DNA from: a bacterium
GTDB lineage: Bacteria > UBP15 > UBA6099 > DSWB01
DNA: 13,412 nt
Direction: 5' to 3'
Assembly: GCA_020061125.1 (NCBI GenBank)
Contig: JAGUYV010000006.1
Span: 1 to 13,412 of the forward strand
Shown: positions 1 to 13,412 of the stretch, in pieces
Layout of the letters: each line of letters starts with the position of its first letter
Position numbering within the stretch: the stretch's first letter is position 1
Position numbers and translations under genes: made by a program
The notes under the pieces: model-generated
Databases searched by the model: none
The model's input: the letters and a program-made list of their open reading frames with translations, nothing else
What the model was told of the DNA's origin: nothing

Positions 1-423
1 GCGCGCGGCGCGGCCACGCTCGCCGCCATCGGAGATTACTGCTCCAACAAGGTGTTCCCGGATCAGCCCCATTCCCCGGCCTGGGCGCAAATCGAAATGG
101 CGCGCAAAGGCAACCGCCGCGCCCTGCTCGCGGCCATGCGCAAGCTGCACAACATCTCCGGGGACCTGCGGCATGGCGTTCCCAACCCGCACCTGGCCAA
201 AGATCTGCGCCTGTACGCACGCAAGCTCGAACGGCTGGCCCGGGCCATAACCCTGGCGCACGAAATCGCGCGCGCGCCCCACGCCCAAAAACCGGCCCTG
301 CGCAAACAAATCGCCCCCCTGCTCCGCGACATCCGGCGCGACCCGAAAATCGTGTGCGCGGGCGCGCTGCAATGCTACCTGTTCGACACGGTCAGGGAAT
401 TTATGCCCGATGTTGTCGTGTGA
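1..423 (+). CDS. C-terminal part of an unidentified protein (5' end outside window)
   Basis: The reading frame is open from base 1 (codons GCG CGC GGC...) to a TGA at 421-423, giving 140 visible residues. A GTG at 52 is possible as a start, but the frame continues upstream with the same high third-position GC and no ribosome site precedes 52, so I read this as the tail of a longer gene. The visible part looks soluble and alpha-helical: many Arg, Lys, Leu and Ala, heptad-like stretches around residues 75-120 (for example LRLYARKLERLARAI), and no membrane segment. The opening segment (ATLAAIGDYCSN... then a conserved-looking W) faintly resembles the end of the GH84 beta-N-acetylglucosaminidase barrel, where an '(I)ADYxWN' motif precedes a helical region. 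This is a weak resemblance, not an assignment. The next gene's promoter starts on its last codons, so the two transcripts are probably separate. Confidence 0.7.
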   Translation, partial: ARGAATLAAIGDYCSNKVFPDQPHSPAWAQIEMARKGNRRALLAAMRKLHNISGDLRHGVPNPHLAKDLRLYARKLERLARAITLAHEIARAPHAQKPALRKQIAPLLRDIRRDPKIVCAGALQCYLFDTVREFMPDVVV

Positions 424-448
424 CACCGCGCCGTGCGTGTGCTATACT
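420..448 (+). promoter_or_regulatory. sigma70-type promoter with extended -10
   Basis: The -35 box GTGACA (420-425, 5 of 6 to TTGACA) is separated by exactly 17 bp from the -10 box TATACT (443-448). The -10 is preceded by TGC at 440-442, an extended -10 (TGn). The -35 overlaps the TGA stop of the upstream gene. Transcription would start near 455, leaving a leader of about 67 nt before the ATG at 522. The spacing and double match make this a convincing promoter for the nitronate monooxygenase gene; no experimental support is available here. Confidence 0.7.
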
Positions 449-507
449 GCATGCTGTTATTTCAACCACATGACACGCGCGCCGCACCGTGCGGGCCGCG
501 AAACCGC

Positions 508-512
508 GGAGG
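508..512 (+). promoter_or_regulatory. Ribosome binding site GGAGG
   Basis: GGAGG lies 9 nt before the ATG at 522. It decides the start: the frame is also open from a GTG at 489, but that codon has no Shine-Dalgarno sequence, and the 11 extra residues (Arg/Pro-rich) do not fit the family, whose N-terminus begins close to the first beta strand. Confidence 0.8.
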
Positions 513-521
513 TCCGGGTTC

Positions 522-1601
522 ATGATTAAAACTTGGCTCACCAAAAAGCTGGGCATCAAGCATCCCGTGATTCAGGGCGCCATGGGGCCGTATAGCACCA
601 ACAAACTGTGCGCGGCCGTGGCCAACGCTGGCGGCCTGGGCGTGATCAGCCTCATCGGCATGGGCGTGCAGCACAGCGAGGCCACGCCCGTGGACCCCAC
701 CCTGGTGTTCGGACCCGGCACCACGGAAGAGTATGTGGCGCGCAGCCTGGAATTCGTGAAAAAGGAAACCGCGGCCTCGGGCGGCGTCTTCGGCGTGAAC
801 TGCCCGGTGTCCCTGGAATTCATGGACGCCGCAAAACTGCTCGTGGGCAGCGTGTTCGCCGAACGGGAAAAAGACCCGGACCTGCAAAAGCGGCTCCGCG
901 TGATCATCACCTCGGCCGGAGACCCGGTCCCGTGGGCCGAACATATCCGAAAGACCGACATGATCTGGTTCCATGTGGTGCCGTCCATTTACCATGCGTC
1001 GCGCGCGGACAAGGCCGGGGTGGACGCAATCATCGCCTCGGGACACGAGGGCGGCGCGCACATATCCTGGCAGCCGGTGCATTCCATGGTGCTGATCCCC
1101 GGCGTGGTGGAAGCGACGAAGAGACCGGTGATCGCGGCCGGGGGCTTTTGCGACGGCCGCACCCTGGCCGCGGCCCTGGCCCTGGGCGCCGTGGGCGTAC
1201 AGATGGGCACACGGTTCATCGCCACGCGCGAATGTGATTTCTGGGATGTGTGGAAACAGGGCGTGGTGCGCGGGTCGGACCGGGACACCCTGGTGGGCCG
1301 CGGCATGTTCGGCCCCATGCGCTTCATTAAAAACGATATGTCGGAACAGCTCGTGGACAAGACCACGGAACTCGTGCCCGAATTTTTCAAGGGCCTGCCC
1401 GTGGACCTCGCGCCCGAAATCCTGGAAATCGAGAAACAGGGTTTCGCCAACCTGGTGAACGACGACCCCCAGGGGTCTCTCATTCTCGGCGGCGAAGCCT
1501 GCGGCCGCATTAAAGACATGCCCGCAGTCTGCGATCTCATGGATTCCTTGATTTCCCAGGCGGAAATCATTCTCAAGGCCTTGCCCGATTTCGTGGCGTA
1601 G
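522..1601 (+). CDS. Nitronate monooxygenase / NPD-family FMN-dependent TIM-barrel enzyme
   Basis: A 359-residue protein of the nitronate monooxygenase (2-nitropropane dioxygenase)/FabK-like family: FMN-bound cytoplasmic TIM barrels that oxidise alkyl nitronates or, in the FabK branch, reduce enoyl-ACP. Visible family marks: PVIQGAMGPYS at residues 15-25 (first strand, flavin site), NAGGLGVIS at 35-43, FGVNCPV at 90-96, ITSAGDP at 129-135, GVDAIIASGHEGGAH at 166-180 (loop with the presumed catalytic His) and RPVIAAGGFCDGR...GAVGVQMGTRF at 201-232 (flavin-phosphate binding). Length is normal for the family. The catalytic loop reads HEGGAH instead of the usual E(A/S)GGH, so it belongs to a divergent subgroup and the substrate is uncertain. 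It has its own promoter and RBS, and lies over 400 bp from the giant surface-protein gene. No intrinsic terminator is visible after the stop. Family membership is secure; the exact reaction is not. Confidence 0.9.
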   Translation: MIKTWLTKKLGIKHPVIQGAMGPYSTNKLCAAVANAGGLGVISLIGMGVQHSEATPVDPTLVFGPGTTEEYVARSLEFVKKETAASGGVFGVNCPVSLEFMDAAKLLVGSVFAEREKDPDLQKRLRVIITSAGDPVPWAEHIRKTDMIWFHVVPSIYHASRADKAGVDAIIASGHEGGAHISWQPVHSMVLIPGVVEATKRPVIAAGGFCDGRTLAAALALGAVGVQMGTRFIATRECDFWDVWKQGVVRGSDRDTLVGRGMFGPMRFIKNDMSEQLVDKTTELVPEFFKGLPVDLAPEILEIEKQGFANLVNDDPQGSLILGGEACGRIKDMPAVCDLMDSLISQAEIILKALPDFVA

Positions 1602-1638
1602 CCAGCAATCCGGACACATTCCCCTCTGTTTCAGGCCA

Positions 1639-1662
1639 AAAATGTGATTCATGTCACATTTT
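1639..1662. promoter_or_regulatory. CRP-type operator (TGTGA-N6-TCACA)
   Basis: A perfect inverted repeat with 9-bp arms, AAAATGTGA (1639-1647) and TCACATTTT (1654-1662), separated by 6 bp. The core TGTGA-N6-TCACA with A-rich and T-rich flanks equals the Escherichia coli CRP (cAMP receptor protein) consensus. Its centre is 1650.5, about 59-61 bp upstream of the start expected from the -10 at 1698-1703 and about 68-71 bp from the one at 1707-1712, both within the range of class I CRP activation. It lies 38 bp after the monooxygenase stop and most likely controls the gene at 2016. An FNR-type site (TTGAT-N4-ATCAA) is excluded by sequence. Confidence 0.8.
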
Positions 1663-1670
1663 GTAAAATG
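1657..1670. repeat. Dyad CATTTT-GT-AAAATG
   Basis: A perfect 6-bp inverted repeat with a 2-bp centre, sharing its left arm with the right arm of the CRP-type operator. It could be a second, overlapping operator or simply AT-rich chance. It is too weak and too close for a terminator. Confidence 0.4.
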
Positions 1671-1694
1671 ACTCGATCATTTCGGAGTTTTCTA

Positions 1695-1712
1695 TGGTAC
1701 AATTCATATAAT
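1695..1712 (+). promoter_or_regulatory. Activator-dependent promoter: two overlapping -10 elements
   Basis: Two candidate -10 elements sit downstream of the CRP-type site: TACAAT at 1698-1703 with a TGG just before it (extended -10), and a consensus TATAAT at 1707-1712. Neither has a recognisable -35 at 16-18 bp (for example GGAGTT at 1684-1689), which is typical of promoters that need an activator. Predicted starts are about 1710 and 1719. This is the best promoter for the giant gene and gives a 5' leader of about 300 nt. Confidence 0.6.
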
Positions 1713-1718
1713 TATAAA

Positions 1719-1741
1719 TGGCCCTGTGGACAAATGGGCCA
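1719..1741 (+). other. Possible 5'-end mRNA hairpin
   Basis: TGGCCC (1719-1724) and GGGCCA (1736-1741) form a perfect 6-bp GC-rich stem with an 11-nt loop, located at or just after the predicted transcription start. A hairpin at the very 5' end can protect a transcript from decay. No U-tract follows, so it is not an intrinsic terminator. Confidence 0.35.
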
Positions 1742-2003
1742 ATATCAACAAACACAAAGCGTTTTATCACAACAAATATGGCCACAAAACGCCACGGACA
1801 AAAACGCCGCAGTAGTTTGAGGCAATAGGCTTTGTTCAAAACAATTATGTGCTTTTAGTTTTGTCCGGCTGGGGAAACGGGTATAGAACGGCATTACTAT
1901 TATAAAAGCCCGGAGAGTTTGGGAAACATTAAACAGCGCAACCGGGTTGGGATACACGACAACCGAATATGAAGTGATTGAACAGCGAACAACCATTTAG
2001 CCC

Positions 2004-2008
2004 AGGGG
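2004..2008 (+). promoter_or_regulatory. Ribosome binding site AGGGG
   Basis: AGGGG sits 7 nt before the ATG at 2016. An in-frame TAG at 1998-2000 blocks any upstream start, and a clean signal peptide follows directly, so the start is well fixed. Confidence 0.75.
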
Positions 2009-2015
2009 TTGAATC

Positions 2016-2108
2016 ATGCCAGGAAAACACAGGGATTTAGCCAACGGACCCTCCGTTGGTGCGCTTTTGGCGCTGCTTTTGTGTTTATGGAGCGGCGCCG
2101 CGCATGCG
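2016..2108 (+). other. Sec signal peptide of the giant protein
   Basis: A basic N-region (K4, H5, R6), a hydrophobic core at residues 14-26 (VGALLALLLCLWS) and an Ala-His-Ala cleavage box ending at residue 31, before QSHF. This is classic signal peptidase I type. The Cys at 23 lies inside the hydrophobic core and lacks a lipobox context, so a lipoprotein is unlikely. Confidence 0.85.
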
Positions 2109-5100
2109 CAATCGCATTTCATTGACAACTTTGATTCGTACGCGCGCAACTCCAGCGTGTGCGCGGCCGCGAACTGGGCCGCGTGCAGCGGCAGCGCCAC
2201 GGTGAGCAACGCCGCCTCGGTGTCCACGCCCAACAGCGCGTTCCTGGATCGCAACGGCTCCGATTCCTCCATGACCGGCATCAGCTTCGGCGCGGTGTCA
2301 CAGCGCATGGTCGTGGAATTCTCATTGAGAGCGACACGCGTAAATTCCGGAACAAAGGGCGTTGTACTTCGAAACAGCACGAACGGCGCCGCCATACAGG
2401 TGCGCATCAACGATACAAGACGCATCGAATACAACCGGCTCGGGACCTGGACACAGCTCTGCGGGTCCAATACCTCGAACAACACCTGGTATACATTTCT
2501 CATTGTTACCGATCCCTCGCAGACCACGGACACTTTCGACCTGTTCGTCACAGAAGGCGGCGCGGCGTTCTGCTCGGGCACAAACCTGAATGTGCAGGCC
2601 AACACAGCAAATATTGACAAGATTGAGTTCTACGCCTCGGGCAACAACAACGCGGACATGTATGTGGATGATGTGCGCGTGTACAATGTGGGCGCGCTGA
2701 ACCTTGCGCCGGGCGCGAACAATCCCGTGGCCGCGAACATCGCTTCGGACGCCGCGGATGTGGCCATGCTCCAGATGTCCATTCAGGAAACCGGCGGGCA
2801 CGAGGGCGTGCAGATAACAGAGGCGCAGTTTACGGCGTCCGGAACCGGAGACGACCGGAGCGCTGCCAGCGGCGGAGCCATCAGCAACAACCAGGTGTGC
2901 CTTTACAGGGACACCGGGGTATCGCCAGGCGCGTGGGACGCCGGGGACCCGGCCATCGGCGCCTGCACGAATTACAGCGCGGACAATGGGACCGCAATTT
3001 TCAGCGGCATAGCGGAAACCATCCCCGCGGGCGGCTCGGCCCTGTGGCTGCTTGTGTACAAGCAGATGGCGGGCACGGCCATCGGCGGCCAGACCTTTGC
3101 GGCCGCGTTAAGCGGCGGAACCGCAACCGGCGCAACCTCGGGCCAGTCCGCCAACGCCACGGGCGCGGCCGCGGGCAACGCCATGACCGTAATCGCCATG
3201 CCGCCCAACGCCACGGCGTACACCAACAACACCGAAAGCGCGCTGAACGGTCTCGGCGCGCGCACCACGCAGTCCGTGACCATCACGGGCACATCGTTCG
3301 GCACGGCGTGCGCGGCGCCGGGCAATGTCATTAAAATCGGCGCGTACACCGTGGACTGCGCCCTCGTGTCCTCATGGACCAGCACCTCGATCACATTCAC
3401 GCTGAACACGGCGATCGGCAATGAATACGGCGGCGCGGGCGCGCTGGTTGTGCGCGCCAACGCCATGGACGACACAACCCCGCTGAACTTCTCCGTGTAC
3501 CCGCGGGTCACGGGCCTGTCCCCTGCCTGCGGCGCGGAGGGAACCGCGGTATCCGTTCAGGGCGATCACCTGTGTCCGGGCGGAACATGCCCCGCGGCCG
3601 GGAACCGCGCCACTGCGGCCAACAATGTCACATTTTTCAACAGCCTCATGGTTCCGGACGCGGCGGTGTCCTCATGGACCCACACGCAGATTGCCGTGAC
3701 CGCGCCTACCGGCGCACAGACCGGCAATGTCACGGTCACGGCGAATTCCCTTGCCGCAGGTTCCGCGCTGTTCGACACCAATGCACCCGCGCAAAGCGGC
3801 TGGAACCCGCCCAAATATTCGTCCATCCTCACGACCTCTCCCACGATCACTTTCACCCTGGACACGGCGGGCGACTGCCGCTGGTCGCTCGACGACCTGG
3901 GCTACAGCGCCATGACCGGCGACTGCACCGGGGACGGGACCGCGAGCATCACCTGCGCAACCTCCGGGCTGCCGCAAGGCCCGGCCGTGGTTTACACCGC
4001 GTGCCGCAGCGCGTGCGGCGCGCAGGACACCGCCGCCACCAACGAAGCCATCAGCTATACCGTGGACGAATACCAGCCCCTGGGCGACGCCTGGTGGGAC
4101 CCCGCATGGGCCTACCGCGTGCCCGTGCAGATCGCCAAACCCGCGGGATACGAAACCGCCAGATTCCACAACGGCTATGTAAACACCACCGTGGATTTCG
4201 CGGCTGCGGGCTTCGACCACATTGACCAGAACAGCCTGCGCATGGTGCGCTACAACGGATCCACCTGGACCGTGCTGCCCGTGCGCATAACCCAGTGGTG
4301 GGACGGCGACAGCGACGGCAAGTACGACCGCGCGAACATCACTTTCGCCGTGGACAAGGACGACCTCAAGAGCGGCCTGCAAACCGCGATTGTGTACTAC
4401 CTTTATTACGACATCGTGTCCAACGGACCCAAGGCCGCCGCGGCAACGGCGCCCGTGACCACGCTCAAAATCCTGTGCCTGGACAACGACAACGAATCCC
4501 AGGTGTGCGAGGCCATGGCTGCGTACTCGGCCATCGGGGAAATCAATGTCATCGTCTATGAAGCCCCGAACCTCAACGCCCTGGTGTACGGCAACCTCGT
4601 GAATTACGACATGCTGTACTTCGGGTGGAACGCGCTGGCCAACGACCAGACCTACCAGCTCGCCGGATACGAAGAAGACTTGAAAAATTACGCAAGCAGC
4701 GGGGGGCGCATCCTGTGCGCCGCCAGTGACAACGCCGGATGGGCGAGCGGCTGGCTGCCCGACCCCGGCGCCATCGCGGTGTACGACACCGGCGACTCCA
4801 ACCCCACCATGTTCGCGCCGTTCAACACAGAAATCTTCAACTACCCCAACGCCAACGCACTCAACGGCGTGACCGAGGACGAAGATTACCGCAATGTGAA
4901 CACGGGAGCGGGCTGGGAGATTATGGCCCAGGACTCGGGCACCACCGCGCGCAAGATGTATCTGCGCAAATATCATGGGGCGGGCGTTTACATCCTGTCA
5001 TCGGTGGACGCGCGCAACGCAACGCTGGCCAACGCCGGGCGCAATTATTTCCAGAACTCGATTTACTGGGCGTGGCGCTGGCGGCAGACGCAACTGACCG

Positions 5101-8100
5101 TGGCCATCGGAACGCCCGAATGGTACACCCCGGACGCCATCGGCTTCTTCGAGAGCGGCTACGCAATCCCCATGACTTCAGCCCGCGTGGGCGACACCAT
5201 TTACATCCAGATGAACGGCGACGACATCAACGACACCGTGACCGGTTCCGTGACTGTGAAACTCACGAGCACAAGCGACCCGGCCGGCATCACAATCACG
5301 CTCACGGAAACCGGCCCGGCCACGGGCATCCTGCGCGGAACCGCCACCCTGGCCACGGCCACCAACGGCCCGGCGGCGCAAATCCTGGCCAACACCGGCG
5401 GCACCATTACTGTCGCATCCATCACAAAAGTGGAGAAATCCGCAACCCTCACTGTGGCCGCGAGTGAGCCGTCCGTGATCACGGAACTCGACATCAAAAC
5501 CGACGGGACTTATTCGGTCAGCCTCGAAGACACCGTGGATATCGGAAGCACGCTCTACATCCAGGTTCTGGCCACGGACGCCAATCCCTTGAGTTCGGAC
5601 ATCACCACCGTGCGCGTTACAAGCACCACGGACCCGGCCGGAATCAATGTAAATCTTTATGAAACCGGGCGCAACACGGGCATCTTCCGAGGCGCCGCCA
5701 CTGTGGCGAACAATTCTGACGATCTGCTCGACTACATCGCGGCAGTGAACGCTGACACCATTACTGTCAGATCCAACACCGACACTGCGTTCTTCGACAC
5801 ATGCCAGGTTAAGAACCAGCCGCCCACGGCCATTTATTCCATTTCTCTGTACCAGAGCAATTACACCACGCAACTCACCACGGCCGCGGGCGGCGCCACG
5901 GCTTACATCGAACTCGTGGGACAAGACGGCAACTCATATTCCCAGGACCGCACCACAGTGAGCGTCAAGAGTTCGACAACGGACCCGGTCGGCATCGGCG
6001 TTCAGGTGGTGGAAACCACGGCGTCCTCGGGCATTTTCAGGGGCAGTTTCACCCTCAAGGCGGCCAGCGATGTGGTGCAACGGCACATCGGCGCGCGGGT
6101 TCCCGGGGAAACCGTCACCGTCACCTCCGACGACGACCCCACGAAAACCGATGCGCTCACGGTTCTGAACACGCCCCCGGTTTCCATCACCGGACTCGAT
6201 GCAAAAACCGACGCCTCGTATTCCGTGTCCCTGGGCTATGGCCTGCAGGTGGGACAAACCATCTATCTGGAAATCACGGCCCCGGACGCGAACCCTGAAA
6301 CAAACGACACCACACAGGTAACCCTCAAAAGCTCGGCCACGGATCCCGCGGGCATCACCTTAACGCTGACACAGACAGCACCCACGGCAACCACCTACCG
6401 CGGCACAGCGATCATCAAGCCGGCCAGCAATGCGGCCGCGAGACAGATCGGCGCGGATGCGGGAGAAACCATCACCATCACCTCCGCCACCGATCCCTCG
6501 AAAACCGAAACCGTGCAGGTTATTTCCACCAATCCCACGAGTATCACATCGCTCACATTCATGAACAGCGCATACAGCGCCCCGCTCGCTGGCGGCGTGG
6601 CCGTGGGCGAAAACCTGTACATCGAAATTGCCGCCGCGGACCTGAACCCCGAGTCCACGGACCAGACCACGGCGTATGTGGTGAGTACGGCCGACCCCAC
6701 GGGCATCACCGTAACCCTCACCGAAAGCGGGCGCGGCACGGGCCTGTTCCGCGGCGTGGCCACGGTGTCCTCATCATCCAACCAGCTTACAGGTGAAATT
6801 CTGGGGGCGAACGGAGACACCATCACCTCCAAGTCAACCGTGAACCAGGCGCGCCAGGACACGATTGCGGTTCAGGGTTCGCCGCCCCGGGGCGTGTTCG
6901 CGCTCGACATCTACCAGTCGGATTACACCACGGCCATTTCCCAGGCTAAAGGTGGCGACATTCTCTACATCCAGGCCCGGGGCGTGGACGGAAACACCGC
7001 GTCCACGGACAGGATGGTGGCCACGGTCACCAGCACCTCCGATCCCGTGGGCATCACCGTCACGCTCAACGAACAAACCAGCGGAACCGAGTTCAACCGC
7101 CCCTACCGCGGAACCATCACCCTGGGCAGCGCGTCGAGCCAGGCTCTGGGCACAATCAAGATCGCCGTGGGCGACACGGTCACCGTCACATCGCAGTATT
7201 TCGTGTACCTTGTGGACGGCTCCGGACATTTCTGGTTTGAAGGCGAAGCGGCCAACCGGCTCACGCCCAACATGACCGCCAGCGCGGGCGCGAACACATC
7301 CGGCGGACAGTTTGTGTATGTGCCTCAAGGCTCGTATACCGGCGCCGCGGAGTATGTGTTGTACAAGCAATCCGCTGGCACGACAACATACTACCTCTAT
7401 GGCCGCACCTGGGCGCAGGACGCCGGGGGCCGCCAGTTCACGGCGCGCATGGACAACAACGGCGAAACCGCATGGGATTTGGGCGCAACATATGCCGTGT
7501 GGCGCGACCCCTGGCTCGCGGGCGCATCTTACAGTCTGGCGCAGGGCGCGCATGTGTTCCGCATCCGCAACACCGCCGAAGCCAACGACGCGGCGCGCCT
7601 CGACAAAGCCGTGCTGCGCACCAACGCCAGCGCGCCCACGGGCTTCGGAAGCGCCCCGGTGACCCTCACCCCGAGCGATTCCATTACCGTGCCCAACACC
7701 CAGCCAACCGCCGTGACGGCCGTTGTGCTCAAAAGCGACGCCACATATTCCGCGGACCTGCTTACCAATGTGCAGATCGGCAGCACCCTGTACATCCAGC
7801 TTCAGGGAACCGACGGGGACACCCAGTCCGTAAACACCACCACGGTCACGATCAAGAGCAGCGTCACGGACCCCGCGGGCATCACTGTGACCCTCACGGA
7901 AACCGGCGTGGGCACGGGCATTTTCCGCGGGACCGCCGCCGTGGCCGCGGCCAGCAGCCAGGCTTCGGGCCTCATCGGCGCCGCCACCAATGAAACCGTC
8001 ACCATCGCGTCCGTGGTCAACCCAACCCGCACCGACACCGTCATCGTGGACACCCCGGCCGCACTTTCCATTGACACCGTGACCACCGCACCCACGCTGG

Positions 8101-11100
8101 TGAACCGCGGACAGTCCGGCATCACCGTCTCGTTCACAGTGGACAACAACGGGACCGCCGCGGCAAACCTGTCCGCGGCTTCGCTCGTGTTCACCAACAA
8201 CACCGATTTCACCGTGACCCCGGATCCGGGCAACCCGTCGCAAATTGCTGGCGGCGCGCAAAATGTTGTCTTCACTTACACCGTGGCCGTGAAAACCGGC
8301 GCCGCGCTCGGCATGAACACTATAGACGCCGCAGTCACAGCCACGGACGCCATCACGGGCGCAAACTGCTCGGACTCGGGCGCAACCGTGACGGACCAGT
8401 GGGAAGTGCGCGCGCCCGGCAGCCTTGCGTCCACCCTGGCCGCAGCCCCCACGCCCGCTTCCACGGGCCAGATCATCACGGTGACCATGACCGTGACCAA
8501 CACCGGCGGCAACACCGTGAACGCAGCCGCGCCTTCCGCACTCACCCTCGGCGGAACCAGCAACGCCACCTATGAAACCGGTCCATCCCCGGCCTCCGCG
8601 AACATCCTTGCGGGCGGTTCGCAGGACTTCACATGGACCTACACCACGGCTTTGACCGCAGGCACGGTGAACTTCACCGGCAGCGCGTCCGGTGTGGATG
8701 AAATCAGCGGCGCACCGGTCAACGGCACGCCCGGCACATCGAATGATGTGCTGATAAAAACAGCCGCCGATATTTCGGTAACATCCATCCAGGCCGCACC
8801 CACGGCTGTTAACCAGGGCCAGAACATCACAGTGACCATGCGCGTGACCAACAGCGGCACGACCAACGCCGATAATGTGGTCCCGGACCCGCCCACACTG
8901 GGCGGCACAAGCACGGCCACCCTGGTCAGCGGCCCCTCGCCCGCCAGCGCCACGGTGCCGGGCAACGGCTATAAAGATTTTGTGTGGTACTATCAGGCTG
9001 GCTCACAGAACGGCACGGTCAACTTCACGGCCGGGGCCTCGGGAGTGGACGCCTCGAGCGGCAACCCGGTCACGGCCGCTCCCGGAACTTCCAACGATGT
9101 GACCGTGCAACTCGGCGCGGGTCTGTCCGTGAGCATCTCCGCGCCCACGCCCGTAAGCACCGGGCAGAATATGCTCGTCAAAGTCACAGTGACCAATACC
9201 GGCGAATCCGGCGCAACCAATGTGGTGCCCTCCGCCCTCACCCTGGGCGGCACCAGCAGCGCGAATTATGTATCCGGTCCCATTCCTGGAACCGCCGACA
9301 TTGCAGCCGGCGCATCCAAGGAATTCACTTTCGGATACACGGCGGGAGGAGTCGCAGGGACCGTGACCTTCACGGGCAACGCCTCCGGATTCGACGCCAC
9401 CAACGGCGCGCCCATCTCGTCTGCTCCGGCCACTTCCAACACCGCCACAGTCCAGCGCAAGGCCGCCCTGTCTTCGAGCATCATCGCCACGCCCAACCCC
9501 GTGAACTGGGCGCAGACCTTCACCGTGACCATGACGGTTTACAACAACGGCCAGGCTGCGGCACAGACCGTCGCGCCCTCTACGCTCACCGTGGCCGGAA
9601 CCAGCGGCGCAACCAAAGTTTCCGGACCCACGCCCGCGTCCGCAAACATCCCCGGCGGAGGCCAGCAGACATTCACCTGGACCTACACCGCCGCATCCAC
9701 ATCCGGCAGCGTCACATTCACGGGCAACGCCTCGGGAAAGGATGCCAATTCACAACTTAATGTGTCCTCGGGCGTCACCACCTCGGATGCGGTCACAGTA
9801 CAAAAACCCGCGGCCATCACGGCCGCGCTCTCCGGCGCGCCCGCTACGGTCAACACGGGCCAATCCTTCACCGTGACCATGACCGTGACCAACACGGGCG
9901 AAGCGTACGCCAACACCGTGGCGCAGGCCGCGCTCACAGTGGGCGGCACCAGCAGCGCCGTGAAAGTGAACGGCCCCACGCCGCCCGCGGCGAGCATCCC
10001 CGGCGGCGCCAGCCGCGACTTCACCTGGACCTACACCGCGGGCGCAACTCCGGGCACGCTCAATTTCACGGGCAGCGCCAGCGGCGCGGACGCCAACACC
10101 GGCGCTCCCATTTCCACGGGCAGCGCCACCTCTCCGAACCAGACGGTGCAGGCCGCCGGAACCCTGGACGCCTCCAGCATCACGCTGCGAAGCTCCGTGA
10201 ATTACAGGCAGAACTTCACGGTCAGCATGACGGTAACCAACAACGGGACATCACAAATCAACAATGTCACGCCGTCCGCGCTGACCGTGAACGGAACCGC
10301 GGCGGCCGCCAGGCTCTCCGGTCCCACTCCCGCATCCGCCAACATCCCCGGCGGAGGCCAGCAGACATTCTCCTGGACCTACATGGCCGGAACCTCTTCA
10401 GGCACGATTAATTTCACAGGCAGCGCCAGCGGCACGGACAGCGTGAGCGGCCTGCCCGTGTCCTCCACGCCCAGAACCTCGCCAGACTGCCAGGTTCAGT
10501 CACCCGCAAGCATTACCATTTCGCAGATCACATCAAACAAGTCAGTTGTCAACACGGGACAATCGTTCACCGTCACGGCATCGGTGCGCAATACGGGCCA
10601 GGAAACCGTAAACGCGCTGGCGCCGACTACGCTCTCGCAGTCCGGCACGGGCGCGGCCACGGTGATCAGCGGACCCACGCCCGTGAATGCAGCCCTGCCC
10701 GGCAGCGCCACGCAGACATTCTCTTGGACCCTCACGGCCACGGCGCCGGGAACGGTCTATTACTCCGCGTCCGCACAAGGAACCGGAAACAATTCAGGTC
10801 TGGCCGTTGAAGCGGTGACAAGCACCACGCCGGCCATAGCCATCATGCGCGGCGCGGACCTGTCCGCGTCTGTGGCGGCCACGCCCGGCCAGGTCAGCAG
10901 CGGACAAACCGTGACTGTGGTCATGACCGTGACCAACGCCGGACAGGTGCAGGCCAACGCCGTGGCGCCGTCCGCGCTCACCATCACGGGCAACAGCGGC
11001 AATGTGACCCTGGCAACCGGCCCCACGCCCGCAAACGCCAGCATTCCGGGCGGGCAGTCCCGCACATTCACCTGGACCTACACCGCGGGCAGCATCGCGG

Positions 11101-12944
11101 GCACTGTGTTCTTTACAGGCAACGCAACCGGCACGGACGCCAACTCCGGGCTGCCCGCTTCGAGCAACAGCGACACATCCAATGTGGTCATGATCGCCAC
11201 GCCCGCCAACCTCACCGTGAGCATCAATTCATCCCCGGCCGGGATTGGCGAGAACGGTACCATCACCGTGACCATGACCGTGAACAACACGGGCGGCGCC
11301 GCGGCCAACAATGTCTCGCCCTCGGCCCTCACCCTGGGCGGCACCAGCGCAGCAGCAACGCTCGCCGACGGTCCCAGTCCGGCTTCGGCCAGCATCGCGG
11401 GCGGAGGCACCAAGCAGTTTGTTTGGCATTACACCGCGGGCGCCACGGCCGGCACCGTGAACTTCACGGGCAACGCCGCAGGCACGGACGCCAATTCCGG
11501 TAACCCGATCGCGGCCGCGATCAAGACTTCCAACAATACGACAATCCAGGGGCCGGCCACGCTTTCATCGTCCATTCAGGCGGCGCCGTTGAACCCGGCC
11601 CCGGCATCGGCCATCACGGTCACCATGACCGTGTCCAACACCGGCGGAGCGCAGGCCAACAGCGTGGCGCCGTCCGCGCTCACGGTCGGCGGAACCAGCG
11701 CCGCCAACTTTGCGTCCGGCCCGTCTCCGGCCAGCGCGGACATCCCCGGCGGAGGCCAGCAGGCCTTCACCTGGACCTTCACCGCGGGCGCGGGATTCGG
11801 CACCGTGAATTTCACGGGCAACGCCGCGGGCACGGACGCCAACTCCGGCAACCCCGTGGCCGCCGCCATATCAACCAGCAACAATGTGAACATCACCTCG
11901 CTCGGCCCGCTCTGGGTGTACCCGGCGGCGGGCACCATCGGCGCGGTCCGCTCGTCTCCGTCCGTGAGGGACAACACGGTCTATGTCGGCTCGGACGATG
12001 ACAATCTCTATGCGCTCAACGCCTCGAACGGCGCGCTCAAGTGGAGCCGCAACACCGGCGGCGATGTGGTGTCCACCCCCTACCCCGTGTACGACGGCAG
12101 CCAGTACATCGTGTACTTCGGTTCTTACAGCAACTATGTGTACGCGCTCACCGAGAATAACGCGCAGGCCCCGGGATGGCCCGGCGTGCGCGTCAACATC
12201 GGCAACACCATCGTGTCCACCACCGTGGTGGACGGGTACAACATCTTCCTGGGCAGTTTCGACCAGAAGGTGTACGCCGTGGACATGGCCAACGGGAGCA
12301 TCGTGTGGACTTCACCGTCGCTCGGCGGCTCTCTGATATCAAGCCCCTCGGTCGGCGACACCGAAATGTTCATCGGCAGCACCAACGGCAAGCTGTATGC
12401 CCTGAACAAGGCGGACGGCACATATCTCCGAGAGTTCGACACGGGCGGCGCCGTGGAAGGCTCGGCCTGGGTGGACTGGACCGGCGCTCTGTTCATCGGA
12501 AGTTCCAGCGGCAAGTTCTATCGCCTCAATGCATCCAACTTCACGCAGACCTGGGTGTGGCCGTCCTCGGGTTCCGTGGGTTCCATCATTTCCTCGCCCT
12601 GGGTCGAGTCCGGCTTGAACGCCGTTTACTTCGGCTCCAACGACGGAAAGCTGTACGCCATCAACACAACCACGGGGCAGCCCCTGGCCGGGTTCACGCC
12701 CTACCAGACCGGTTCGGCCGTGCGCTCCTCGCCCCTGGTGTGGAACGATGTGGTGTATTTCGGCTCGGACGACGGCAAGGTGTACGCCATCAGCGCAAAC
12801 AACGGCGCGATTCTCCCCGGCTGGCCCTACGACACCACAAACATAGTGTTTTCTTCGCCCGGCCTGTATTATGTGGACGGCATCAACGACCGCATCATCG
12901 TCGGCTCGAATTCGGGACAGGTGTTCGCGTTTGAAGCTAACTGA
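2016..12944 (+). CDS. Giant secreted multidomain surface protein with Ig-like repeats and C-terminal PQQ-type beta-propeller
   Basis: A 3,642-residue exported protein, uninterrupted by frameshift. Domain order (residues): signal peptide 1-31; LamG/concanavalin-like sandwich 32-228; beta-sandwich domain with 'LYRDTGVSPGAWDAGDPAIG' at ~292-311, 229-395; two TIG/IPT-like domains 396-495 and 496-590; Cys-rich beta module 592-686; DUF2341-like 691-805; ThuA/GATase1-like 815-1025; seven ETG repeats 1036-2012, the sixth carrying a CBM6/malectin-like domain at 1738-1872; eleven CARDB/DUF11-like repeats 2013-3294; eight-bladed propeller 3295-3642. The repeats are rich in Thr, Ser, Ala, Gly and Asn and poor in Lys and Cys, as in extracellular stalks. 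I see no transmembrane segment, LPxTG, PEP-CTERM or recognised type IX tail, so the mode of retention is unknown. The likely role is adhesion or carbohydrate binding at the cell surface; this is inference from architecture. The upstream CRP-type operator suggests carbon-status control. It overlaps the downstream peptidase gene by 14 bp. Confidence 0.9.
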   Translation: MPGKHRDLANGPSVGALLALLLCLWSGAAHAQSHFIDNFDSYARNSSVCAAANWAACSGSATVSNAASVSTPNSAFLDRNGSDSSMTGISFGAVSQRMVVEFSLRATRVNSGTKGVVLRNSTNGAAIQVRINDTRRIEYNRLGTWTQLCGSNTSNNTWYTFLIVTDPSQTTDTFDLFVTEGGAAFCSGTNLNVQANTANIDKIEFYASGNNNADMYVDDVRVYNVGALNLAPGANNPVAANIASDAADVAMLQMSIQETGGHEGVQITEAQFTASGTGDDRSAASGGAISNNQVCLYRDTGVSPGAWDAGDPAIGACTNYSADNGTAIFSGIAETIPAGGSALWLLVYKQMAGTAIGGQTFAAALSGGTATGATSGQSANATGAAAGNAMTVIAMPPNATAYTNNTESALNGLGARTTQSVTITGTSFGTACAAPGNVIKIGAYTVDCALVSSWTSTSITFTLNTAIGNEYGGAGALVVRANAMDDTTPLNFSVYPRVTGLSPACGAEGTAVSVQGDHLCPGGTCPAAGNRATAANNVTFFNSLMVPDAAVSSWTHTQIAVTAPTGAQTGNVTVTANSLAAGSALFDTNAPAQSGWNPPKYSSILTTSPTITFTLDTAGDCRWSLDDLGYSAMTGDCTGDGTASITCATSGLPQGPAVVYTACRSACGAQDTAATNEAISYTVDEYQPLGDAWWDPAWAYRVPVQIAKPAGYETARFHNGYVNTTVDFAAAGFDHIDQNSLRMVRYNGSTWTVLPVRITQWWDGDSDGKYDRANITFAVDKDDLKSGLQTAIVYYLYYDIVSNGPKAAAATAPVTTLKILCLDNDNESQVCEAMAAYSAIGEINVIVYEAPNLNALVYGNLVNYDMLYFGWNALANDQTYQLAGYEEDLKNYASSGGRILCAASDNAGWASGWLPDPGAIAVYDTGDSNPTMFAPFNTEIFNYPNANALNGVTEDEDYRNVNTGAGWEIMAQDSGTTARKMYLRKYHGAGVYILSSVDARNATLANAGRNYFQNSIYWAWRWRQTQLTVAIGTPEWYTPDAIGFFESGYAIPMTSARVGDTIYIQMNGDDINDTVTGSVTVKLTSTSDPAGITITLTETGPATGILRGTATLATATNGPAAQILANTGGTITVASITKVEKSATLTVAASEPSVITELDIKTDGTYSVSLEDTVDIGSTLYIQVLATDANPLSSDITTVRVTSTTDPAGINVNLYETGRNTGIFRGAATVANNSDDLLDYIAAVNADTITVRSNTDTAFFDTCQVKNQPPTAIYSISLYQSNYTTQLTTAAGGATAYIELVGQDGNSYSQDRTTVSVKSSTTDPVGIGVQVVETTASSGIFRGSFTLKAASDVVQRHIGARVPGETVTVTSDDDPTKTDALTVLNTPPVSITGLDAKTDASYSVSLGYGLQVGQTIYLEITAPDANPETNDTTQVTLKSSATDPAGITLTLTQTAPTATTYRGTAIIKPASNAAARQIGADAGETITITSATDPSKTETVQVISTNPTSITSLTFMNSAYSAPLAGGVAVGENLYIEIAAADLNPESTDQTTAYVVSTADPTGITVTLTESGRGTGLFRGVATVSSSSNQLTGEILGANGDTITSKSTVNQARQDTIAVQGSPPRGVFALDIYQSDYTTAISQAKGGDILYIQARGVDGNTASTDRMVATVTSTSDPVGITVTLNEQTSGTEFNRPYRGTITLGSASSQALGTIKIAVGDTVTVTSQYFVYLVDGSGHFWFEGEAANRLTPNMTASAGANTSGGQFVYVPQGSYTGAAEYVLYKQSAGTTTYYLYGRTWAQDAGGRQFTARMDNNGETAWDLGATYAVWRDPWLAGASYSLAQGAHVFRIRNTAEANDAARLDKAVLRTNASAPTGFGSAPVTLTPSDSITVPNTQPTAVTAVVLKSDATYSADLLTNVQIGSTLYIQLQGTDGDTQSVNTTTVTIKSSVTDPAGITVTLTETGVGTGIFRGTAAVAAASSQASGLIGAATNETVTIASVVNPTRTDTVIVDTPAALSIDTVTTAPTLVNRGQSGITVSFTVDNNGTAAANLSAASLVFTNNTDFTVTPDPGNPSQIAGGAQNVVFTYTVAVKTGAALGMNTIDAAVTATDAITGANCSDSGATVTDQWEVRAPGSLASTLAAAPTPASTGQIITVTMTVTNTGGNTVNAAAPSALTLGGTSNATYETGPSPASANILAGGSQDFTWTYTTALTAGTVNFTGSASGVDEISGAPVNGTPGTSNDVLIKTAADISVTSIQAAPTAVNQGQNITVTMRVTNSGTTNADNVVPDPPTLGGTSTATLVSGPSPASATVPGNGYKDFVWYYQAGSQNGTVNFTAGASGVDASSGNPVTAAPGTSNDVTVQLGAGLSVSISAPTPVSTGQNMLVKVTVTNTGESGATNVVPSALTLGGTSSANYVSGPIPGTADIAAGASKEFTFGYTAGGVAGTVTFTGNASGFDATNGAPISSAPATSNTATVQRKAALSSSIIATPNPVNWAQTFTVTMTVYNNGQAAAQTVAPSTLTVAGTSGATKVSGPTPASANIPGGGQQTFTWTYTAASTSGSVTFTGNASGKDANSQLNVSSGVTTSDAVTVQKPAAITAALSGAPATVNTGQSFTVTMTVTNTGEAYANTVAQAALTVGGTSSAVKVNGPTPPAASIPGGASRDFTWTYTAGATPGTLNFTGSASGADANTGAPISTGSATSPNQTVQAAGTLDASSITLRSSVNYRQNFTVSMTVTNNGTSQINNVTPSALTVNGTAAAARLSGPTPASANIPGGGQQTFSWTYMAGTSSGTINFTGSASGTDSVSGLPVSSTPRTSPDCQVQSPASITISQITSNKSVVNTGQSFTVTASVRNTGQETVNALAPTTLSQSGTGAATVISGPTPVNAALPGSATQTFSWTLTATAPGTVYYSASAQGTGNNSGLAVEAVTSTTPAIAIMRGADLSASVAATPGQVSSGQTVTVVMTVTNAGQVQANAVAPSALTITGNSGNVTLATGPTPANASIPGGQSRTFTWTYTAGSIAGTVFFTGNATGTDANSGLPASSNSDTSNVVMIATPANLTVSINSSPAGIGENGTITVTMTVNNTGGAAANNVSPSALTLGGTSAAATLADGPSPASASIAGGGTKQFVWHYTAGATAGTVNFTGNAAGTDANSGNPIAAAIKTSNNTTIQGPATLSSSIQAAPLNPAPASAITVTMTVSNTGGAQANSVAPSALTVGGTSAANFASGPSPASADIPGGGQQAFTWTFTAGAGFGTVNFTGNAAGTDANSGNPVAAAISTSNNVNITSLGPLWVYPAAGTIGAVRSSPSVRDNTVYVGSDDDNLYALNASNGALKWSRNTGGDVVSTPYPVYDGSQYIVYFGSYSNYVYALTENNAQAPGWPGVRVNIGNTIVSTTVVDGYNIFLGSFDQKVYAVDMANGSIVWTSPSLGGSLISSPSVGDTEMFIGSTNGKLYALNKADGTYLREFDTGGAVEGSAWVDWTGALFIGSSSGKFYRLNASNFTQTWVWPSSGSVGSIISSPWVESGLNAVYFGSNDGKLYAINTTTGQPLAGFTPYQTGSAVRSSPLVWNDVVYFGSDDGKVYAISANNGAILPGWPYDTTNIVFSSPGLYYVDGINDRIIVGSNSGQVFAFEAN
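2109..5120 (+). other. N-terminal head region of the giant protein (LamG-like, TIG-like, DUF2341-like, ThuA-like modules)
   Basis: Residues 32-1035 differ from the rest of the protein: non-repetitive, rich in Cys (about 19 residues) and aromatic. The first sandwich ends in MYVDDVRVYNV, a typical closing strand of LamG-like folds. Two TIG-like domains follow, with strands such as VTGLSPACGAEGTAVSVQG. The DUF2341-like module begins DAWWDPAWAYRVPVQI (691 on), the usual 'W..aW.YR.pi.i' opening. The ThuA/GATase1-like module (815-1025) shows alternating strands KILCLD, YDMLYFGW, GGRILCAAS and GAGVYILSSVD. I find no clear nucleophile-elbow motif, so it may bind rather than catalyse. Module identities are by eye and moderate in confidence. 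Confidence 0.55.
5121..8051 (+). repeat. Seven ~118-residue 'ETG..TG.FRG' beta-sandwich repeats
   Basis: Repeat starts are at residues ~1036, 1151, 1268, 1386, 1505, 1622 and 1895, ending at 2012; the spacing is 115-119 residues except for the sixth. Each unit reads roughly G-x2-LYI(Q/E)...D.N...TTV.VKS..TDPAGI.V.L.ETG..TGIFRG.ATV....GDTITV.S....TDTV.V. The ETG..TG.F.G signature is common in very large secreted bacterial and archaeal proteins; I cannot name the Pfam family with certainty. The units fall into three subtypes in the order ABC-ABC-A (see findings). They probably form a rod. Confidence 0.75.
7227..7631 (+). other. CBM6/malectin-like carbohydrate-binding domain inserted in ETG repeat 6
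   Basis: Residues ~1738-1872 open with FWFEGEAA, have SGGQFVYVP and AAEYVLYKQSAGTTTYYLYGRTWAQD in the middle, and close with SLAQGAHVFRIRNT followed by ARLDKAVL. This is the canonical CBM6/CBM35/malectin-like order: 'EaE', 'Y.l.v' strand, 'l..G.H.l.i' strand and a final 'lDk..l'. It is a beta-sandwich that usually binds glycans. It interrupts repeat 6 between its 'GDTVTVTS' strand and its last strand 'DSITVPN'. Ligand residues cannot be assigned by eye. Confidence 0.65.
8052..11897 (+). repeat. Eleven CARDB/DUF11-like Ig repeats, period ~116 residues (~348 bp)
   Basis: The first unit (residues 2013-2132) is divergent. Ten regular units start at 2133, 2249, 2366, 2481, 2597, 2713, 2829, 2945, 3061 and 3179, a period of 115-118 residues. 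The consensus by eye is GQ.FTVTMTVTNTG...AN.V.PSALT.GGTS.A....GP.PASA.IPGGG...FTWTYTAG...GTV.FTG.A.G.DA.SG.P.......TS....VQ. This matches the CARDB/DUF11 style of Ig-like adhesion domain ('cell adhesion related domain found in bacteria'). Unit 8 (2829-2944) is the most divergent of the regular ones. Identical DNA blocks shared by units 5, 7 and 11 point to recombination between repeats. Confidence 0.85.
11898..12941 (+). other. C-terminal eight-bladed PQQ-type beta-propeller
   Basis: Residues 3295-3642 contain eight copies of the blade motif '(Y/F/I)(V/F/L/I)GS-x5-(V/L/F)(Y/F)(A/R)(L/V/I/F)': YVGSDDDNLYAL, YFGSYSNYVYAL, FLGSFDQKVYAV, FIGSTNGKLYAL, FIGSSSGKFYRL, YFGSNDGKLYAI, YFGSDDGKVYAI and IVGSNSGQVFAF. 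The leading strand PLWVYP would close the ring with the last blade. Eight blades match BamB and quinoprotein dehydrogenases. There is no sign of the PQQ or metal ligands of a dehydrogenase, so a binding platform is more likely. It ends at the C-terminus with FEAN and no sorting tail. Confidence 0.85.
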
Positions 12945-13412
12945 CTGGCAGCAGATTGACACGCCCGACCCACGGCTGGAGCTTGTGGCCGAGGCTCTGG
13001 CGCGCACCGGGCAGGCGCGTGTGCGCGTGCACGGAGCAAGCATGCGCCCGGCGATTTGCGGCGGCGACATCGTGAACATCCGGGCGTGCGCGTGGAAAGA
13101 TCTTCGGATCGGAGACATCGCGGCGTGCATCCGCGGCGCGGGGCTGGTGGTGCACCGCGTGGTGTGGAAATCGCCGGGCCGCGTGTGGCTCAAGGGCGAC
13201 GCCCTGCCGTATTTGGACCCGCCCATGCCGCGTGGCCTCATATTTGGAAAAATCGCGGGCGTGGAAACCGCGCGCGGTTTTATGGACCTCACAACCCGCG
13301 GCGCGCGCACGACGAACATCGGCATTCTGCTCTACGCACTGCCCCTGTCTCTGGCGCTGGCCGCATGGCGCGCCCTGTGCGGCCCGCTCGCGCCGCTCCA
13401 CGGCGACGGCCC
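12931..13412 (+). CDS. S26 signal-peptidase-like protein, SipW/ER type (3' end outside window)
   Basis: From a TTG at 12931 the frame stays open to the right edge (160 residues seen). It has the S26 boxes of the Ser-His-Asp (SipW/Sec11-type) branch: VHGASMRPAICGGDIV with Ser37, GDIAACIRGAGLVVHRVV with His75 where classical LepB has Lys, and LKGDALPYLDPP with Asp90 and Asp96. A hydrophobic stretch at 130-148 (IGILLYALPLSLALAAW) is a C-terminal membrane anchor; the usual N-terminal anchor is missing. The start is uncertain. TTG 12931 has a weak AGG nine bases upstream and overlaps the giant gene by 14 bp, implying translational coupling. An ATG at 12871 would only add residues read from the giant gene's other frame, and a GTG at 12985 has a GGAG that is too close. 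It may process exported proteins, perhaps its neighbour; soluble-start S26 proteins of this kind also occur near peptide-maturation genes. Confidence 0.8.
   Translation, partial: MKLTDWQQIDTPDPRLELVAEALARTGQARVRVHGASMRPAICGGDIVNIRACAWKDLRIGDIAACIRGAGLVVHRVVWKSPGRVWLKGDALPYLDPPMPRGLIFGKIAGVETARGFMDLTTRGARTTNIGILLYALPLSLALAAWRALCGPLAPLHGDG

Follow-up and report, generated by a model that had tools for sequence, protein, structure and literature searches.

Near-total absence of the palindrome ACGT from a bacterial MAG: a probable case of selection against Type II restriction sites

Prokaryotes can avoid the recognition sites of orthodox Type II restriction enzymes in their own DNA (Rusinov et al., 2015, PMC4687349; Gelfand and Koonin, 1997, cited therein). 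Genomes that encode the corresponding enzyme avoid its site in 47.9% of cases, compared with 3.9% for control pairs; the avoidance outlives restriction-modification (R-M) systems that have been lost (PMC4687349). The word that concerns us here, ACGT, is among the known recognition sites of Type II enzymes, as that of HpyCH4IV (PMC3849833). In Helicobacter pylori, ACGT stands at an observed/expected ratio (o/e) of 0.05-0.11, and CTNAG is also low, at 0.16-0.52 (PMC3849833). There, ACGT has been lost mainly to ATGT and ACAT, for which deamination has been invoked, with the 5-methylcytosine enzyme M.Hpy99XI (PMC10423294).

The window examined here is the whole stretch of 13,412 bases that was analysed (1..13412). 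An earlier note, made by reading the letters, had claimed that ACGT is absent from it; a programmatic count indeed gives 0. The expectation is 57.2 +/- 7.0 from dinucleotide-preserving shuffles, 45.2 from a maximal-order Markov model, and 44 from composition; given 45.2, the Poisson probability of finding none is 2e-20. The note's own figure was about 45, based on an assumed GC of about 62%; the measured GC is 63.2%. Palindromes of the same composition are plentiful, as had been noticed: GTAC occurs 36 times, AGCT 16, TCGA 37, GATC 37, CATG 61, and TGCA 28. CTAG is missing as well, although here a mere 2.4 are expected from the maximal-order Markov model. By count, the window also lacks CTSAG, RTCGAY, GRGCYC, CAGCTG, and AAGCTT, none of which the earlier note had mentioned.

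The gap is seen in the coding DNA. Most of the window is occupied by an ORF for 3642 amino acids (2016..12944, + strand), whose product has CARDB repeats and a C-terminal PQQ/BamB-like beta-propeller. Within its codons, Asn, Asp, His, and Tyr are written with a T-ending codon in 35 of 35 cases where GTN follows, compared with 26 of 163 before other codons that start with G. The claim that codon choice bends around ACGT is therefore borne out across the entire ORF, and the run first quoted for it (2661..2690, + strand), TATGTGGATGATGTGCGCGTGTACAATGTG, matches the DNA base for base. ACGT is also missing from the coding DNA of a nitronate monooxygenase-family ORF upstream (489..1601, + strand), and from the non-coding stretch that lies between the two (1602..2015), which is too short for many to be expected. 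The window also holds an ORF at 12871-13410 that overlaps the 3' end of the large ORF and runs past the window end; its match to Peptidase_S24 is weak and below cut-off (E 0.0017).

The window belongs to the MAG of an uncultured bacterium (G000), which amounts to 4.12 Mb in 513 contigs and is 79% complete. Throughout this MAG, the word SSACGTSS occurs 39 times, against 2641 for the equivalent control built on TGCA. A sample of contigs totalling 236 kb, picked by their number alone and blind to ACGT content, holds 2 ACGT where 546 are expected (0.4%); the upper 95% bound is 1.3% of expectation. The gap spans coding and non-coding DNA, as the earlier note had proposed. Six genomes of the same order, all from other families, behave differently. 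Here, SSACGTSS occurs 864-1119 times against 358-1058 for the controls, and ACGT stands at approximately 0.8-0.9 of expectation in the stretches sampled from five of them. Among the genomes compared, the loss of ACGT is lineage-specific. Thus, ACGT is rare against a Markov expectation genome-wide, as in Type II restriction-site avoidance, and its rarity is not of a general compositional kind, given the 0.8-0.9 in relatives and the 0.83 in carriers of an unrelated R-M system (see below).

An estimated 120 ACGT sites remain in the whole MAG. Seven of 15 residual sites checked lie no more than 250 bp from a contig end, where 0.8 would be expected (contigs C1, C2, C8, C56, C63, and C139); perhaps this reflects mobile elements at assembly breaks, or errors at the ends. 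Residual ACGT is also found beside a low-GC island (C3/L019). Seven sites lie at positions 751-15318 of a contig that carries core genes of translation and transcription and resembles the rplK-rpoBC-fusA region (L025, C241). This is surprising for core DNA, and the DNA could be horizontally acquired, misbinned, or constrained. Three prophage-like contigs (C259, C78, and C8), with matches to tail tape measure, portal, head-tail adaptor, and endolysin proteins, retain 19 of 52 expected ACGT (~36%). This means that ACGT is not absolutely lethal now; the sites on these contigs may be methylated, or no longer cut, or the contigs may be misbinned.

One might, of course, ask whether the gap is made by assembly, binning, or composition. 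The fragmentation and incompleteness of the MAG invite the question, as does the crowding of residual sites at contig ends. However, the gap persists against Markov models, covers 20-kb stretches of intact coding DNA, and does not appear in same-order genomes put through the same analysis. It is also visible in codon pairs, that is, in reading frame, which effectively refutes an artefact; the probability left to this explanation is negligible.

The codon pairs were counted in 216 ORFs of the MAG, holding 109,289 codons. Here, NAC|GTN accounts for only 8 of 1004 cases, meaning that Asn, Asp, His, and Tyr end in T before GTN 99% of the time; before other codons that start with G, NAC is used in 61-73%. 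ACG|T accounts for 2 of 722 cases, and CGT codons are preceded by A in 2 of 607.

These counts also speak to how the sites were lost. ACGT might have decayed by mutation, with no selection at all, if a C5 methyltransferase modified it and deamination to ATGT or ACAT outpaced its re-creation, as has been proposed for H. pylori with M.Hpy99XI (PMC10423294). In the MAG, ATGT/ACAT indeed stand at 1.46 of first-order expectation. This excess, however, is explained by the change of NAC|GT to NAT|GT, which is the only synonymous way out. Deamination should also turn ACG|T into ACA|T and lift the ratio of ACA to ACC before T well above its controls. The ratio is 0.67. For Ala, the control, in which GCG|T shows no depletion, GCA/GCC before T is likewise 0.67, and the values for Pro (0.52) and Ser (0.42) are near. 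Since ACA is not in excess before T, deamination of 5-methylcytosine is not the main cause. Further, reaching 0.4% would need extremely fast deamination, and in several of the ACGT-null genomes no match to a C5 methyltransferase was found. Mutational decay is therefore very unlikely as the explanation; it is mainly purging selection that lies behind the loss of ACGT. The earlier note's view that selection acts on the DNA and not on the protein is well supported by the gap in coding and non-coding DNA alike, by the synonymous codons, and by sister families that lack this gap.

ACGT is not the only word to have gone. Wider word counts were made in 407 kb of core contigs of the MAG, on both strands, against a second-order Markov model; this core set excludes seven contigs, mostly for their clustered residual ACGT, so that the unbiased ACGT figure remains that of the 236-kb sample. 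CTCAG/CTGAG occur 2 times where 636 are expected, which puts CTSAG at 0.3% of expectation, with an upper bound of 1.1%. CTAAG (31 of 94 expected) resembles its level in relatives; the depleted motif thus looks like CTSAG. GTCGAC (0/117), ATCGAC (6/138), and ATCGAT (10/162) together make RTCGAY, at ~4% of expectation, and GGGCCC (12/368), GAGCCC (13/222), and GAGCTC (12/135) make GRGCYC, at ~5%, which is the BanII specificity. CAGCTG (10/264), CATATG (16/215), AAGCTT (18/108), and CTAG are also depleted. Several same-order genomes are likewise poor in CATATG, CAGCTG, and GGGCCC; ACGT is not low in them, and neither CTSAG nor RTCGAY shows such depletion there. These relatives have depleted sets of their own, RGATCY and ATGCAT in one (G001), GATC and CCAGG in another (G003). 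That several words resembling restriction sites have been lost together is what restriction predicts, and not what a single odd mutational bias would produce.

The proposal in the earlier note that a restriction system cutting ACGT is responsible therefore gains from the company in which ACGT has been lost. It gains nothing from a search of the 79%-complete MAG for an ACGT-specific enzyme or methyltransferase, which identified none. The MAG has matches to one C5 methyltransferase (PF00145), three PF01555 enzymes, and two D12 enzymes (PF02086), none tied to ACGT; PF02384 and PF07669 gave no match in the part recovered. The methyltransferase of C172 is of the beta class, has no recognised restriction gene alongside, and finds its best PDB relatives in 8urk/9c3s and CcrM. 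Those of C259 and C78 lie on prophage-like contigs, that of C411 is a partial match, and that of C38 is a D12 enzyme with matches of both Type II and orphan type.

The only complete R-M locus of the MAG (L017, on contig C128, 417-2871) contains the C5 methyltransferase, a DUF4928 protein that matches PADLOC REase_II PDLC03543 (E 1.7e-42), and Vsr. The GC of its genes, 0.48 against 0.64 for the contig, suggests from composition that they may have been acquired later. If this locus drove the loss of ACGT, other carriers should be ACGT-poor. It was therefore compared with 79 homologous loci from GTDB genomes (48-71% identity, one being a fragment). ACGT has a pooled o/e of 0.83 across the carrier loci. 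Its median is 0.82 in 66 carriers, none of them below 0.3, against 0.66 in 26 control loci, a control median that is biased low because 12 of the 26 came from genomes picked for low ACGT. The locus is thus unsupported as the driver, although recent acquisition in the carriers could mask an effect. No motif convincingly separated carriers from controls; GGWCC is slightly lower in the carriers (0.55 vs 0.68).

A few other genomes among 389 look similarly ACGT-poor, and near-total loss recurs in genomes that are unrelated. In sampled stretches, both strands counted, observed over expected ACGT is 10/868 in G073, 24/739 in G019, 2/89 in G212, and 0/109 in G087; G397, G181, and G354 give the same picture in smaller samples. 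The first of these is GC-rich, is listed as 100% complete, and has ACGT at ~1% of expectation (L207, L208, L271-L276). It gave no match to any of the four methyltransferase families searched (PF00145, PF01555, PF02384, and PF02086).

This raises the idea of restriction that needs no modification. Here, both in the MAG and in the convergent genomes, a system would cut ACGT without having a methyltransferase, the host being protected simply because its DNA holds no site. Losses that are near total, and G073 with its lack of matches to the four families, are what one would expect. Conversely, the ~120 sites in the MAG, including those of the prophage-like contigs, would be lethal under an unopposed cutter unless they are misbinned. 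We consider this explanation very unlikely.

An all-against-all comparison of the methyltransferase loci of ACGT-poor genomes delivered a different lead. Three genomes, each of a different family, have in common a cassette of two genes, in which a C5 methyltransferase (44-54% identical) adjoins an unannotated ORF of 252-270 amino acids (42-49% identical). The cassette is found at 554-2476 of L179 in G087 (ORF 554-1327, methyltransferase 1349-2476), at 694-2559 of L180 in G028, and at 671-2607 of L181 in G212 (ORF 671-1483, methyltransferase 1483-2607). As only ACGT-poor genomes were searched, the sharing gives no base rate, and G028, being CpG-poor, is a weak case of ACGT poverty. Searches with the ORF gave no Pfam match above cut-off, placed it in no family of NCBIfam or of PADLOC (the latter at an E-value limit of 0.1), and turned up no PDB relative that is credible; IMG/VR, plasmids, and phages yielded nothing either. 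Its sequence carries an invariant D-x-E, with an E-x-Q farther along; judged from these residues, this could be a PD-(D/E)xK variant. The cassette is accordingly a candidate for an ACGT-specific R-M system with an uncharacterised nuclease family. The recovered part of G000 has no second C5 methyltransferase, and thus does not hold this cassette.

When did the selection act? Once selection against a site is relaxed, mutation should re-form it to approximately 1-exp(-4*mu*t) of expectation; this is our own estimate, and ignores other constraints. With no more than 1.3% of the expected ACGT present, it leaves roughly under ~0.3% neutral divergence per site since selection ended. Almost no ACGT has been re-formed by mutation, which puts the selection in the present or the very recent past. 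The footprint of an R-M system lost long ago, with no selection today, would account for the cognate enzyme not being found in a 79%-complete MAG, and avoidance left by lost systems is documented (PMC4687349). In that case, however, mutation should have brought sites back, whereas no more than 1.3% of them are there; a long-lost system is a highly improbable source of the gap.

Thus, the explanation that we favor, and hold to be quite probable, is that Type II restriction sites are avoided through selection that is active now or was until very recently. The lineage would have been long under such selection. A restriction enzyme for ACGT would have resided with its methyltransferase, chromosomal sites that were incompletely methylated would have been cut sporadically, and genomes with fewer ACGT sites would have won. 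Over a long residence, ACGT would have been purged to under about 1% of expectation, in coding DNA largely via synonymous changes; similar footprints would have come from at least three more specificities (CTSAG, RTCGAY, and GRGCYC). We infer an R-M system as the agent, with genes that are located in the ~21% of the genome not recovered, are members of a family that was not recognised, or were recently lost. Against R-M avoidance stand the failure to find an ACGT enzyme, the lone complete R-M locus with no ACGT association in its other carriers, G073, which is equally ACGT-poor and matched none of four methyltransferase families, and a figure of 0.4% that lies below those found in H. pylori.

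The MAG illustrates the lengths that restriction avoidance can reach: in a genome of ~4-5 Mb, at least two words have fallen below 1% of expectation. Contigs rich in ACGT stand out in such a genome as newly acquired DNA. Convergent ACGT-null genomes offer a route to ACGT-specific enzymes via comparative genomics, with one candidate cassette so far. They also raise the question of whether a genome that lacks a methyltransferase can stay free of a site.

Much in this resembles Type II avoidance as described (PMC4687349), where short palindromes are scarce, the scarcity is lineage-specific, several words are often affected in one genome, and the cognate enzyme is sometimes missing. The MAG differs from the typical case in that the loss is near total (0.4%), that several words are lost together, and that the cognate enzymes were not found. 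With H. pylori it shares the very word, ACGT, strongly underrepresented; unlike H. pylori, its loss is deeper, and the test by synonymous codons carries no signature of deamination. The kind of phenomenon is thus already known. The MAG is an extreme and notable case of it, by its missing ACGT enzyme, by the number of words involved, and by the completeness of their loss.
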